DNA from: Planctomycetota bacterium
GTDB lineage: Bacteria > Planctomycetota > UBA8742 > JACQVU01 > JANLHZ01
NCBI GenBank assembly: GCA_024653775.1
Contig: JANLHZ010000162.1
Span: forward strand, 1-46,348
Direction of reading: 5' to 3'
DNA: 46,348 nucleotides
Shown here: one piece after another, positions 30,333 through 46,175 of the stretch
Layout: the number at the start of each line of letters is the position of its first letter
How positions within the stretch are numbered: the first letter of the stretch is position 1
Position numbers and translations under genes: made by a program
Notes under the pieces: model-generated
What the model saw: only the letters and a program-made list of their open reading frames with translations
Databases searched by the model: none
Told to the model about the DNA's origin: nothing

Positions 30333-30648
30333 ATTAACCCTCCACGTTCTTCGTTAACTTTAACAGCAGCCGCCCGAAATTTCATCCGACGGGACAATTT
30401 TGTGGTCCGATGGTTGCGCTTCCGAAAAGCAACTGCGCATTAGGTTGTCGTTTCCTTTCATACTTGGAAAGTGTCCCTGCGCCAGTTATACTTAGAAACT
30501 ATCGTGGGCGCCTGGGACCGCGGACGTCCTCGTCCGCAAAAGCCGTCAAACGTCTCATTTGACGGCTCCGAATTATCGATGTCGTTCGCTTGAGATAGTT
30601 TCTTAACCCCTCGTCACCACCTTCATAAGTCCTTCCCGAAAATCGTAA
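30333..30648. other. Divergent spacer before the type III restriction-modification operon
   Basis: This 316-bp spacer between two divergent units holds a TTA-flanked palindromic element (30495-30602, listed separately). The remainder should contain the promoters of the CcmH-like gene and of mod, but I could not identify boxes with confidence. Confidence 0.4.
30495..30602. mobile_element. 108-bp TTA-flanked palindromic (MITE-like) element
   Basis: Terminal repeats GAAACTATC (30495-30503) and GATAGTTTC (30594-30602) are exact inverses. Both ends are bordered by TTA in the same direction (30492-30494 and 30603-30605). Inside are two perfect hairpins: GCGGACG/CGTCCGC (30520-30526, 30531-30537) and AGCCGTCAAA/TTTGACGGCT (30541-30550, 30558-30567). 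The word GGGACCGCGGACG (30514-30526) recurs, inverted, at the edge of the palindromic repeat near 46175. No coding capacity. Confidence 0.6.
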
Positions 30649-41916: not shown

Positions 41917-42012
41917 CTTGCTTCTCTGAATCTTCTGAATGAACCATATCAGCGAGAGCCGCGGTATTCAACTGAGGCCTTGAGTTTCTGCGGTTTCATG
42001 GGAAAATGCATG

Positions 42013-42047
42013 GAGTAGGGAATAGGGAGTAGGGAGTAGGGAGTAGG
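42013..42047 (+). repeat. Heptamer tandem repeat (GAGTAGG)5 with G-quadruplex pattern
   Basis: Five heptamers (GAGTAGG, one GAATAGG variant) end nine bases before the ATG of the next gene. The GGG runs recur every seven bases, giving five G-tracts with four-base loops, the standard intramolecular quadruplex pattern. It lies in what should be the 5' untranslated leader. Confidence 0.85.
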
Positions 42048-42056
42048 GGAAAAGAG

Positions 42057-43304
42057 ATGCGCGCCGCGGAAGAGAGCATAACACATCCAGGCGAGGAAGA
42101 AGACCTCTGGCACGTCATCTACGATAACGTGCAGCGCGGGCCGGTTTCGTATGAGGTCGTGCTCGGGCTGATAGTCGAAGGAAAAGCCGGAGCAGGCGAT
42201 TTCGTTTGGACGCCGGGCTATCCCGACTGGAAGAAAATCGGAAGCACGCGAGAGTTCGCGCAATACGTCGGCGCGTTGTCCGGCGAAAGGACTTCGTCCC
42301 GTCCGGATTTCCGTGGAGGCGAACCCGTCCGTCAGTTCTGCCAGTACTGCGGCGCGAAGAACCTCGCGGAAGCGACGTTCTGCAGCAGGTGCGGCATCTC
42401 GCTCGAACAAGAGGAAGCGATTCTCGTTAGCGCGGAAGCGGAGCCGGGGCCGTCGTACTCGTATTACGCGCGCCGCGGACTTCTGCGCGGACCGAGCCAT
42501 GTGATGGCGTTCCTCGGCGGGCTTCTGATGTTCGTTTCGCTGTTCTGTCCGTGGCTCGAACTTGGTGGAAGCGTCCAGACCATCCTCGATTCCGAGGGCG
42601 GCCAGGGAATTTTTGCGCTGACGTGCCTCGTATTCCTTTTCGGGCTTTCGAACCTGCGCAAGGTCGGTCGCAAGCGAAGCCTCGCGGTGGCGTTTCTGAG
42701 CGTGTTCCTCGTGATTCTTTTCTACTTCTTCGCGATCAGTGTGAAGGATAATGCGGACTACTTCGCCAAGACTCTCGCGCCGATGCACCAGGGCGAGGTG
42801 CCCGTGCGTTCGATAGGCGCCTTGGACGAGTTCGAGCAGAGCGAAGGCGTACGCAAGCTCGGCGGGATCGGGATGGCGCTGTTCGCCGCTGGACTCGTGG
42901 TTGCGCTGCTGTTCTCGATGTGGGGGACGCTCCGGGAACTTGTCACGAGGCCGGTGTCCTCGCTCATTCTTTTCGTCATCGTGTCGATCGTCTGCGGCAG
43001 CGCGATAATGATGCAGCGGGGCTATCTTTACGACCGGCTCCTCGAAGCGAGATTCTATTTCGCGGGGTTCGAGGTAAAGTCGATGGAAAAGATCGAGGCG
43101 AGTCTCACGAGCGAGGAACCTTTGAAAAGAGACGCGGAGAAGGAACTCGTCACGGGTTACGCGTTCGAAGTATCGAAGGATGGCGCGAGCTATTCCGGGC
43201 AGGTCGTGATTTTCAAGGGATCGTTCGATGTGGTCGTGGATATGATTTTCGGTCGGCCCGTGCAGGACTCCGGAATTATTCTTGTGAAAAATTCCGGGCC
43301 GTGA
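42057..43304 (+). CDS. Membrane protein with GYF_2 (DUF4339) domain and zinc ribbon
   Basis: 415 residues. An N-terminal GYF_2 domain (WHVIYDNVQRGPVSYEVV...DWKKI, about 18-61) resembles domains thought to bind peptides. A zinc ribbon follows with Cys95, Cys98, Cys109 and Cys112 (FCQYCGAKN, FCSRCGISL). Five or so hydrophobic helices come next (from VMAFLGGLLMFVSLFCPW on), and then a C-terminal domain of about 110 residues probably on the same side. The start is marked by a weak AAAAGAG just after a G-rich heptamer array. It is 64 bases upstream of the transglutaminase gene in the same direction, so the two may be co-transcribed. The exact role is unknown. Confidence 0.82.
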   Translation: MRAAEESITHPGEEEDLWHVIYDNVQRGPVSYEVVLGLIVEGKAGAGDFVWTPGYPDWKKIGSTREFAQYVGALSGERTSSRPDFRGGEPVRQFCQYCGAKNLAEATFCSRCGISLEQEEAILVSAEAEPGPSYSYYARRGLLRGPSHVMAFLGGLLMFVSLFCPWLELGGSVQTILDSEGGQGIFALTCLVFLFGLSNLRKVGRKRSLAVAFLSVFLVILFYFFAISVKDNADYFAKTLAPMHQGEVPVRSIGALDEFEQSEGVRKLGGIGMALFAAGLVVALLFSMWGTLRELVTRPVSSLILFVIVSIVCGSAIMMQRGYLYDRLLEARFYFAGFEVKSMEKIEASLTSEEPLKRDAEKELVTGYAFEVSKDGASYSGQVVIFKGSFDVVVDMIFGRPVQDSGIILVKNSGP

Positions 43305-43368: not shown

Positions 43369-46110
43369 ATGCCGGTAGCTGTCGCTCAGCAGAAGGTTCT
43401 GAACCCGAAACTCGCGCGCCTTGGCGTGGTTTCGATCTGGTATAGCGCGTCGTATCTCGCGATGGCGATTCTTTCCATGATGATTCTCGGAATCGGACTC
43501 GCGGCTTCCGCGAGTTCGGCGGCGCTCGCGTTCGTGGCGCATGAGTGCGTGACCGCCATGCGGAAATGGATTTACAGGAAGCACAAGGATGAGAAGGCGA
43601 AACATCGAGCGGAGAAGCTGCGGAGCCTCGACATGTTTCTCCCAGCGTTTTTCGTCGTGCCGCTTCTGATTTTCGGGATCATGATCGCGTGGGAAGCGAT
43701 CCGGTCGGGGACGGTCCCGCCGGCGCCACTACTCGCGATCTGCCTGATTTCGTACGCTTTCGCGGGAAGGCCGCTCGGGGTCAGGTTCGCGACGCTGCTA
43801 ATAAGTTTTTCATTCGTCTACGGCATCGCGACGAATTTTTCGCTCTCGGCGTTCCTGATCGGGTTCGGGCTGTTCTCCGCGATGCTGATAACGAGCGGCA
43901 CCTTCGAATTCGAGCAGCGGGCCTTCAGCGAATTCGAACGCGGGGTGAGGCTGCGGATCGTCATGGCGCTCGCAATGGGAGCGGTCGCGTTTATGTTCGC
44001 TGTCATTCTGATCCTTGCCTCGCCGCTGTTCGCGGGGATGGTTTCAAGCGATACGGAGACAAAGATCGAGAGCGAAAGCGCGCTCCGGACGAATGAAAAC
44101 GAAAGGTCCGGAGGCGATGGTTTTCGCGGGGGGAGAGGCGACGGGACAGGTGACGACGGGCAGAGGTTCTCTCCCGTATCTGATGGGCCGCTAGATTTCG
44201 CGGAGGACCTTCGATTCAACGCGACGGAATCCCAGGCTGGAACTCCGGAAGTTCCGATGATGATGGTGCAGCTTTACGAAAAGCGGGGCGTGATGTCGAG
44301 GCTGCTTGAAGACAGACGCATCTACGTGCGCACCCGCGTTCTGACGAATTACTCCGGCAATCGCTGGTTCACCGAATTCGGCAAGATGGAGACGCTCAGA
44401 GCGACCGATTCAGATTCCGACACTCCGGGCGTAATTATCGAGGACGAGAGCGATCTGCCAGTGTTCGCGTCGTATCGCGGGACCTACCTCGTGCTCGCGG
44501 GCACGGTGTTCGAACTGCCGACGGTGGGGGAGGCTTCGAAAATCTATCTGGACGAAGTCGAACGGGACGTTTCGACCGGACTTTTCTTTGTTCCGGAGGG
44601 ACGGTACGCGCCTTATCGCTACGAGGCGAGCACGTTCGAGAAGGACGCGTCGCCTAACAGGTTGCTCGGACGTCGGTCGATTCCTCCGGAGGGCGGCTCA
44701 CAGCAGAAGATCGAGAACGTCAGCCGCGGGTCGGAGTATTTTGCGATCGCGCAGAAAATCAGGCAGCGCGCGAACTCAAACGCGCGTGGCACGGATGTCT
44801 CGTCCGTGAACCCCCACGGTCAGGATGACCGTGCCACGATCTCGGACTACGAACTCGCTATCGCGACGCTCCGATATTTCCATGACGAGAATTTCGTGTA
44901 TTCGATCGATGTCCGCAAACCCGATGGCGGTCTCGATCCGACGCTCGATTTCCTGCAGAACACGAAGAAGGGCTACTGCCAGCATTTTGCGTCCGCGACG
45001 ACGCTGATCCTTCGGAGCCTTGGCCTCACTGCGCGGGTCGCGGTCGGGTTTGCGGGAGATCAGTTCGACCCGGAGACGCAGGCGTTCGTGCTTACGTCGA
45101 AAGACTGCCACGCGTGGGTCGAGGTGCATTTCGCCGGGGCGGGGTGGGTGAGGTTCGATCCGGTGAACGGCATTCCCGTCGAAAGTTCGCTGGGACGCGA
45201 CGGAGGCGAGGGCGGTCAACCCGGTAGCGACGTCTATTCCGTCCGCTCGGAGCAGAACCGGCAGGCGATGGACTCGAGACGGGGCGCAACCGGCGAAAAT
45301 CGCGGAGGCGGCGGAATCGGAGGATCCGAGACGATACTAGATCCGGACGAGGGTCCGGGTCAAGGCCGCGGGAACCTCGAGAATTCTGGAAACGGAGGGA
45401 TCGGCATTTCCGGAAGGCCGCGGCACCCTGCGTTCGACGGTCTTACCGAGGTCTGGGAGAAGGAGAGCATCGCCGAGCGGCCGATTAGGCAGCGCGCGCG
45501 GGAGGAGTCGATGAATTTTGACGACCTCGGCGTGGATAGATCCTCCGCGGACGAAAACGAATCGCGGCAGGAGCAGCTAACGGACGGGATAGAGTCGATG
45601 GATGTCGAACTTCCTCCGGAGCGCGACGCTCCCGCGCCGAATTCCACTGCCGCGGTGCGGGAGGAGATCGCCGGCGCGGCGTACAACTTCGGGAACGCGC
45701 TGGCAATCCTTGCAATAGTCGCGGCTTTGGCTTTCATCGCGGTGAAGTTCATGCACTATCGAAAGGCTAAGCAGCGTTCCGGTGAATCCGGAAATCCGGA
45801 CGAGCAGACCTTCCTTGAATTTCTCAAACTCGGTATCGCACCAAAGCTCGCAAGGGCCGAAACCCACCGTGAGTTCATAATTCAGGAGTACGGCTCGATG
45901 CTCGATAGGCTCGCGAAATCGGAGATGCCGAAGGAGGCTCACGAGACTCCGTGGGATTACGCGCGGAGGCTGATGGATTCCGGCTTCGATAGAGAGCGCG
46001 TCTACGAAATCACGTCGATCTTTGCGGACGCGAAGTACGGCGAAATCGAGTTCTCGCAGGCCGATCTGGTTAAGTTCAGGAAGCTTGCCCAAGGCGTGAA
46101 CGTTCTGTGA
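43369..46110 (+). CDS. TgpA-like membrane transglutaminase (transglut_core plus DUF4129)
   Basis: 913 residues. About six N-terminal helices (to about 225) precede a long extracytoplasmic region, as in the TgpA/DUF3488 family. The transglutaminase core has the full triad: Cys537 in GYCQHFASA, His581 in DCHAWVEVHF and Asp597 in RFDPVNG. A Gly-rich linker follows, then a last TM (NALAILAIVAALAFIAV) and a C-terminal DUF4129-type domain (HREFIIQEYGSML...PWDYARRL). AAGGAAG lies seven bases before the ATG. These proteins usually sit with MoxR ATPase and DUF58 genes, which are not in view. Codons 473-490 are encoded by a 54-bp palindromic repeat that seems to be an in-frame insertion. Confidence 0.93.
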   Translation: MPVAVAQQKVLNPKLARLGVVSIWYSASYLAMAILSMMILGIGLAASASSAALAFVAHECVTAMRKWIYRKHKDEKAKHRAEKLRSLDMFLPAFFVVPLLIFGIMIAWEAIRSGTVPPAPLLAICLISYAFAGRPLGVRFATLLISFSFVYGIATNFSLSAFLIGFGLFSAMLITSGTFEFEQRAFSEFERGVRLRIVMALAMGAVAFMFAVILILASPLFAGMVSSDTETKIESESALRTNENERSGGDGFRGGRGDGTGDDGQRFSPVSDGPLDFAEDLRFNATESQAGTPEVPMMMVQLYEKRGVMSRLLEDRRIYVRTRVLTNYSGNRWFTEFGKMETLRATDSDSDTPGVIIEDESDLPVFASYRGTYLVLAGTVFELPTVGEASKIYLDEVERDVSTGLFFVPEGRYAPYRYEASTFEKDASPNRLLGRRSIPPEGGSQQKIENVSRGSEYFAIAQKIRQRANSNARGTDVSSVNPHGQDDRATISDYELAIATLRYFHDENFVYSIDVRKPDGGLDPTLDFLQNTKKGYCQHFASATTLILRSLGLTARVAVGFAGDQFDPETQAFVLTSKDCHAWVEVHFAGAGWVRFDPVNGIPVESSLGRDGGEGGQPGSDVYSVRSEQNRQAMDSRRGATGENRGGGGIGGSETILDPDEGPGQGRGNLENSGNGGIGISGRPRHPAFDGLTEVWEKESIAERPIRQRAREESMNFDDLGVDRSSADENESRQEQLTDGIESMDVELPPERDAPAPNSTAAVREEIAGAAYNFGNALAILAIVAALAFIAVKFMHYRKAKQRSGESGNPDEQTFLEFLKLGIAPKLARAETHREFIIQEYGSMLDRLAKSEMPKEAHETPWDYARRLMDSGFDRERVYEITSIFADAKYGEIEFSQADLVKFRKLAQGVNVL
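44785..44838. repeat. 54-bp palindromic repeat inserted in frame in the transglutaminase gene
   Basis: Ends CGTGGCACGG (44785-44794) and CCGTGCCACG (44829-44838) are perfect inverses. Inside are CACGGA/TCCGTG (44790-44795, 44803-44808) and CACGGTC/GACCGTG (44815-44821, 44827-44833). It is exactly 18 codons long and in register, encoding RGTDVSSVNPHGQDDRAT just upstream of the catalytic core. A relative with the same CGTGGCACG/CGTGCCACG ends lies right after this gene (46115-46175). Confidence 0.75.
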
Positions 46111-46114
46111 ATTC

Positions 46115-46175
46115 CGTGGCACGTCCGCCATCGTCCGTGGGAAACAATACTCACGGGCAAGATGCCCGTGCCACG
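46115..46175. repeat. 61-bp palindromic repeat after the transglutaminase stop codon
   Basis: CGTGGCACG (46115-46123) and CGTGCCACG (46167-46175) form the ends. A perfect inner hairpin CACGGGCA/TGCCCGTG (46152-46159, 46163-46170) has a 3-nt loop. It begins four bases after the stop codon, so it may protect the mRNA 3' end or help termination. The adjoining GTCCGCGGTCCC is the inverse of a word in the element at 30514-30526. Confidence 0.75.

Follow-up and report, generated by a model that had tools for sequence, protein, structure and literature searches.

How does a palindromic repeat come to lie in frame within a protein-coding gene, and does the peptide it adds serve the host protein? This question is raised by a 54-bp element at positions 44785-44838 of a 46,348-nt stretch of DNA from a Planctomycetota bacterium (GenBank assembly GCA_024653775.1, contig JANLHZ010000162.1), here referred to as the window. 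An initial annotation described the element as domesticated within a transglutaminase gene and drew a parallel to the palindromic elements of Rickettsia. We consider it very likely that the element is a REPIN moved by a RAYT transposase, that such insertions are mostly blind and subsequently selected for frame, and that the copy in the transglutaminase is probably neutral.

The insert in the transglutaminase gene

The host gene (43369..46110, forward strand) encodes a protein of 913 aa in which Pfam places a Transglut_core domain at residues 494-598 and a C-terminal DUF4129 domain, both above cut-off, a layout typical of TgpA-like transglutaminases. As initially annotated, the 54 bp have perfect 10-bp inverted ends (CGTGGCACGG/CCGTGCCACG) and make up exactly 18 codons in register (44785..44838, forward strand), corresponding to residues 473-490 (RGTDVSSVNPHGQDDRAT) of the 913-codon open reading frame; in this copy three of the six reading frames are open. 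The proposed proximity to the catalytic core was also borne out: the insert is located at the N-terminal edge of Transglut_core, 47 residues ahead of Cys537 (codon 44977..44979, forward strand), which is present together with the other two catalytic residues, His581 and Asp597. An example of a predicted peptide spanning host and REP-encoded residues is RGTDVSSVNPHGQDDR.

The initial annotation had suggested orthologue alignment as a test of insertion. This comparison turned out to be only weakly decisive for the transglutaminase, whose nearest homologues in relatives reach no more than about 45% identity across the core, and clean for the transposase insertions in AlaRS described below. Removal of the insert raised the Transglut_core score from 73.1 to 75.0 bits (+1.9) and moved the profile start from 15 to 7. 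As the MAFFT alignment of the relatives was ambiguous around the insert, a sliding deletion against a profile of 27 homologues was used in its place; the best start of an 18-residue deletion was residue 474, one residue off the insert, and 18 residues was the best of all deletion lengths tested, with a small gain from 139.9 to 143.4 bits. A nucleotide-level empty site was not found among near relatives. The chief proof of insertion in the transglutaminase comes from the repeat family itself.

The element as a REPIN: structure and copy number

REPs and REPINs are recognized by a GT[AG]G foot, a hairpin and an inverted doublet, which define them (PMC3116915, PMC8266576, PMC6006769); together with the RAYT transposases, REPINs have been described by Bertels and Rainey in 2011 (PMC3116915). 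The conserved part of the window element comprises 52 bp (44786-44837), to which an outer C and G are added to give 54, and consists not of one simple palindrome but of two back-to-back, inverted, GTGG-tagged hairpins. The left REP (44786..44808, forward strand) carries the GTGG foot and the hairpin CACGGAT-GTCTC-GTCCGTG; it is followed by a 6-nt spacer, AACCCC (44809..44814, forward strand), and by the inverted right REP (44815..44837), which on the reverse strand has the GTGG foot and the hairpin CACGGTC-ATCCT-GACCGTG. Thus, two inverted REPs with 7-bp stems are separated by a short spacer. The sister copy reported in the initial annotation does lie just past the stop codon: a second REPIN of 59 bp, whose left arm belongs to the degenerate CGTCCGCCATCGTCCGTG subfamily, starts 5 bases after the transglutaminase stop (46116..46174, forward strand; taken as 46115-46175, 4 bases past the stop).

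A search of the genome of the window (5.4 Mb, 331 contigs, 96% complete) with a strict-ends pattern identified 65 copies, with none for the reversed control, and a covariance model based on 31 copies placed the element at at least 147 distinct positions among the matches listed, so that the copy number is high, dispersed and above chance. In the stems, 22 cells were changed on both sides compared to 5.0 expected in shuffles, and paired cells amounted to 95.9% as opposed to at most 38.6% in slid controls, which shows that the stems carry compensatory changes. GTGG is invariant in the aligned copies because it was fixed by the search pattern, and copies found later by the model mostly keep it. 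DNA folding of the 54 bp was better than that of 200 out of 200 dinucleotide shuffles (z -3.75). The copy number relative to the control, the folding shuffles and the stem covariation rule out a chance palindrome. Exact target-site duplications of 1-3 bp were not found above the level of shuffles.

Of the 147 copies, 61 are housed in a larger repeat that has terminal inverted repeats of 20 bp and the ends GTGAACGTTCGGTGAACCAC and GTGGTTCACCGAACGTTCAC (L002, L009, L012, L053 and some 57 other places in the genome of the window); therefore, about 85 copies were treated as independent insertions. As expected for REPINs, most of these are extragenic, and about 14 of the approximately 85 reside within genes.

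In-frame copies in other genes and other phyla

The genome-wide search proposed in the initial annotation yielded about 13 further genes with the element in frame. Based on codon usage on both flanks and on Pfam, 14 in-gene copies are credible, and the hosts are, in addition to the transglutaminase, DNA polymerase I (polA), a pyridine-nucleotide disulphide oxidoreductase, an M61 peptidase, RarA/MgsA, a fused methylmalonyl-CoA mutase, ThrRS (thrS), ValRS (valS), an AcrB-type transporter, a 2-oxoacid dehydrogenase E2, a NicO-type protein, an Ig-like protein, a TPR protein and a radical-SAM protein. Two candidates were dropped, one (C199:24694) because it lies reversed within the larger repeat, the other (C196:9967) because its open reading frame has only 87 aa. 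The frame was kept in all eleven insertions with coding DNA on both sides (p ~6e-6, the best frame being picked independently per side); two readings that indicated a shift were antisense readings of the transglutaminase and RarA copies. One reading phase, phase 1, was used in 11 of the 14 copies (p 7e-4). This phase yields xGT(GILPV/DVSSV/GVPPV)...HGQDARAT, though the consensus is open in all six frames. Frame and phase bias thus point to selection on frame and peptide after insertion, from which a function does not follow. Enrichment of lengths of 1 mod 3 among in-gene compared to other copies was not significant (Fisher p 0.39). Hairpins are intact in most in-gene copies. Without the insert, the Anticodon_1 score of ValRS rose from 120.4 to 135 bits (a gain of 14.6); RarA gives no clean empty-site answer, because there the insert apparently takes the place of a variable loop. 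The earlier proposal of an inserted repeat that is likely to be read in frame is supported.

The same architecture with a 6-nt spacer also occurs in acidobacterial, opitutaceal and planctomycete MAGs. A planctomycete FabD is interrupted in the same phase by CGTGVPPVDEHGQDGRAT directly before its GLSLGEYTA motif, and its acyltransferase score increased from 80.4 to 88.8 bits without the insert; an acidobacterial DNA methylase harbors two in-frame copies. In the openly licensed papers searched, no match to the REPIN DNA or to the peptide strings was found.

RAYT transposases and the mobilization of the element

TnpA-REP has been demonstrated to recognize the GT[AG]G foot plus hairpin, with a GTGG foot redirecting cleavage to CC (PMC8266576). 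In a genome of the same class as that of the window (G004), a RAYT within alaS lies between GTGGCACGGGCGTCCCGCCCGTG on its upstream side, which is read as SGTGVPPV, and CACGGGCGAGACGCCCGTGCCAC on its downstream side. The flanking REP is GTGGCACGGGC, a REP of the window's family, and an identical arm is present in the genome of the window. Thus, the ends of the REPIN correspond to those of REP-RAYT-REP, a short spacer replacing the transposase, and we infer that the window REPIN is mobilized by an alaS-type RAYT. A RAYT flanked by the same REP was observed in this same-class genome only; beside the RAYTs first inspected in other genomes, GTGG REPs turned up as weak cases at most. The window's own genome has five Y1_Tnp matches, and a search there for a RAYT with a GTGG REP on each side gave no hit; four RAYT candidates, when scanned alone, fell short of the NCBIfam RAYT cut-off. 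A stand-alone RAYT (L018 1140-1990) is bordered by a palindrome of its own, AATTCGTGCCGTCTACGAATT, and has a one-sided GTGG REPIN 44 nt past its stop. Palindromes similar to that of L018, TTCGTGCCGTCTACGAA, are also located near other REPIN copies.

A further RAYT of this genome resides within purH (L019 1-3234; L171, G000:C288:13721-16954), and the only purH found is this 781-codon frame with the RAYT inside. The order REP-RAYT-three inverted REPs, GGGACC-tagged with a GCGGACGTCCTCGTCCGC core, is situated between the IMPCH (IMP cyclohydrolase) and AICARFT (AICAR transformylase) parts, so that four REPs are in frame alongside the RAYT. The open reading frame passes the NCBIfam purH cut-offs and its RAYT part is just above the RAYT cut-off (80.6 vs 80). 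The core of this second REP family, GGGACC-GCGGACGTCCTCGTCCGC, has 143 exact matches in the genome, including one at 30520-30537 of the window, and GSADVSSA-like remnants of the family adjoin the REPIN in thrS and E2. A short tandem repeat of the GGGAACA/GGGAGTA type also occurs in frame in purH (L019), where it reads REQGTGNG, and at 42012-42050 of the window, upstream of the open reading frame at 42057.

Based on these data, the RAYT, an HUH-tyrosine transposase, would cut and paste single-stranded REPIN DNA by means of the GTGG foot and the hairpin. Insertion would be roughly blind to genes, and selection would purge insertions that break the frame or the fold. Survivors would have a net length that is a multiple of three and a loop or linker site, mostly in the phase giving the small polar peptide xGT...HGQDARAT. 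Its effect in the transglutaminase would be a longer loop between two helices ahead of the catalytic core.

It might be argued that the element is a MITE moved by another transposase and that its resemblance to REPs (the GTGGCACGG REP) is convergent, since 61 of the 147 copies reside in the larger element with its terminal inverted repeats and no RAYT bearing GTGG REPs on both sides was found in the genome. However, the larger element carries the REPIN, yet most other copies are outside of it, foot, hairpin and inverted doublet are hallmarks of REPs, and within the class a RAYT is bordered by exactly this REP; we therefore regard a MITE as very unlikely. That the transglutaminase gene was simply broken, the kept frame being an accident of recent insertion, might be proposed given the location of the insert near the catalytic core. 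This is very improbable, as the 913-codon frame is intact, the catalytic Cys, His and Asp are present, both domains score above cut-off, and the genome-wide retention of frame in eleven of eleven cases is not accidental.

Strict domestication, in which the 18-residue peptide, or a hairpin in the coding part of the RNA, is under selection for a function, would be in accordance with the intact hairpins of most in-gene copies, with the strong reading-phase bias and with the recurrence of near-identical peptides in unrelated proteins of several phyla. Recent insertion would, however, account for intact hairpins just as well, and the phase bias may require only selection against harmful peptides. 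The copies occur in unrelated proteins, at linkers or loops, which is the pattern of tolerated insertions. We consider such co-option very unlikely. The peptide is probably neutral in the transglutaminase, and 'tolerated' describes the insert better than the 'domesticated' of the initial annotation.

Relation to known palindromic elements

With the REPINs of Pseudomonas (PMC3116915), the window element shares the GTGG-type foot, the hairpin, the inverted doublet, the short spacer, a size of about 50 bp, many dispersed copies and RAYTs in the genome. In contrast to Pseudomonas REPs, which are almost all extragenic (PMC3116915), about one sixth of the independent copies are in genes and in frame. 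The Rickettsia palindromic elements (RPEs; Ogata 2000, reviewed in PMC2229807 and PMC10969869) were described as Rickettsia-specific and measure 105-150 bp; the one tested RPE-bearing protein, Gmk, stayed active with changed substrate affinity (PMC2229807, PMC10969869). A palindrome read in frame in conserved genes appears, judged from open frames and domains, to be common to both systems, and as a way of working the parallel drawn in the initial annotation is apt. In descent it is not: going by their descriptions, RPEs are unrelated in sequence, and the window element, which at 52 bp is GTGG-tagged, present in non-rickettsial phyla and set apart from RPEs by their description, was rejected as a member and very probably belongs to a RAYT system as a REPIN.

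The suggestion that such insertion was new outside Rickettsia did not hold, as in-frame REP dimers (GTAG/CGTC) adding 20-30 residues to known proteins have been reported by Di Nocera in 2013 from several phyla including Verrucomicrobia (PMC3733652), polA being among the hosts as in our study. Our analysis differs from that work in giving figures for frame retention and phase preference, in concerning another repeat family and another peptide, and in finding the same peptide across phyla. Similarly, TnpA-Y1 subclass 2.4 RAYTs have GT[AG]G double-foot REPs and frame-keeping REP insertions, there inside the RAYT gene (PMC6006769). As intragenic in-frame REPs are known (PMC3733652, PMC6006769), the window element joins a known kind. 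A single curiosity becomes a testable system, in which a mobile palindrome adds a recurring peptide to unrelated proteins and frame retention serves as the signature of selection.

Whole RAYTs in frame inside genes of relatives

More surprising than the window insert are in-frame RAYTs in essential genes. With the purH RAYT as query, 60 relatives gave many matches in long open frames, twelve of which were read: three in AlaRS (L312, L314, L315; three genomes), six in FabZ (L316-L321; six genomes, same site), and the remaining three (L310, L311, L313) in a salicylyl-CoA 5-hydroxylase/oxidoreductase and two DNA methylases. For seven of the twelve, hosts were assigned by Pfam or NCBIfam, and for four FabZ cases and one AlaRS case by flanking sequence alone. 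Including purH the total is 13, which, since long frames were picked for reading, is a count and not a rate. The sister genomes have an empty AlaRS site, KVRVLTMG-(2 aa)-FSKELCGGTHV, with the transposase at the same point in the others. In G004 and G005 the single AlaRS match is the interrupted one; AlaRS of G008 is spread over two frames, so that this copy may be broken or misassembled. A predicted peptide spanning host and REP-encoded residues is RVLTMGSGTGVPPV in AlaRS. The genomes are mostly draft assemblies and single cases could be chimaeras, an explanation weakened by the recurrence of in-gene RAYTs in several genomes.

The in-gene RAYTs retain the HUH (NHVH) and Tyr motifs. In the tree, which has moderate support, the RAYTs in AlaRS are not set apart from those in FabZ as distinct clades, suggesting that RAYTs may have repeatedly entered, or been exchanged at, the same sites. 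Whereas frame-keeping REP insertions were previously seen inside the RAYT gene (PMC6006769), here the whole RAYT together with its REPs is in frame inside other, essential genes. No report of whole RAYTs in frame inside AlaRS, FabZ or PurH was found in the openly licensed papers searched; at least one survey excluded RAYT proteins that were longer than expected, taking them for fusions or annotation errors (PMC6006769). Tentatively, and with rather less than even confidence, it might be speculated that a clade of RAYTs with its REPINs is resident in the open reading frames of essential genes, REP-RAYT-REP forming a translated domain in the interior of AlaRS, FabZ, PurH and others, intein-like without splicing, with repeated entry at the same sites and conserved catalytic motifs, and that window-type REPINs would be its internally deleted 18-codon offspring. 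This raises the questions of how sole-copy AlaRS and PurH work with a transposase of 180-250 residues inside and whether the transposase is made in step with the housekeeping protein. Lineage-specific in-frame extra stretches of about 60-95 residues are also present at one point in the N-terminal half of AlaRS of G007, G003 and G016 (L332, L333, L335).
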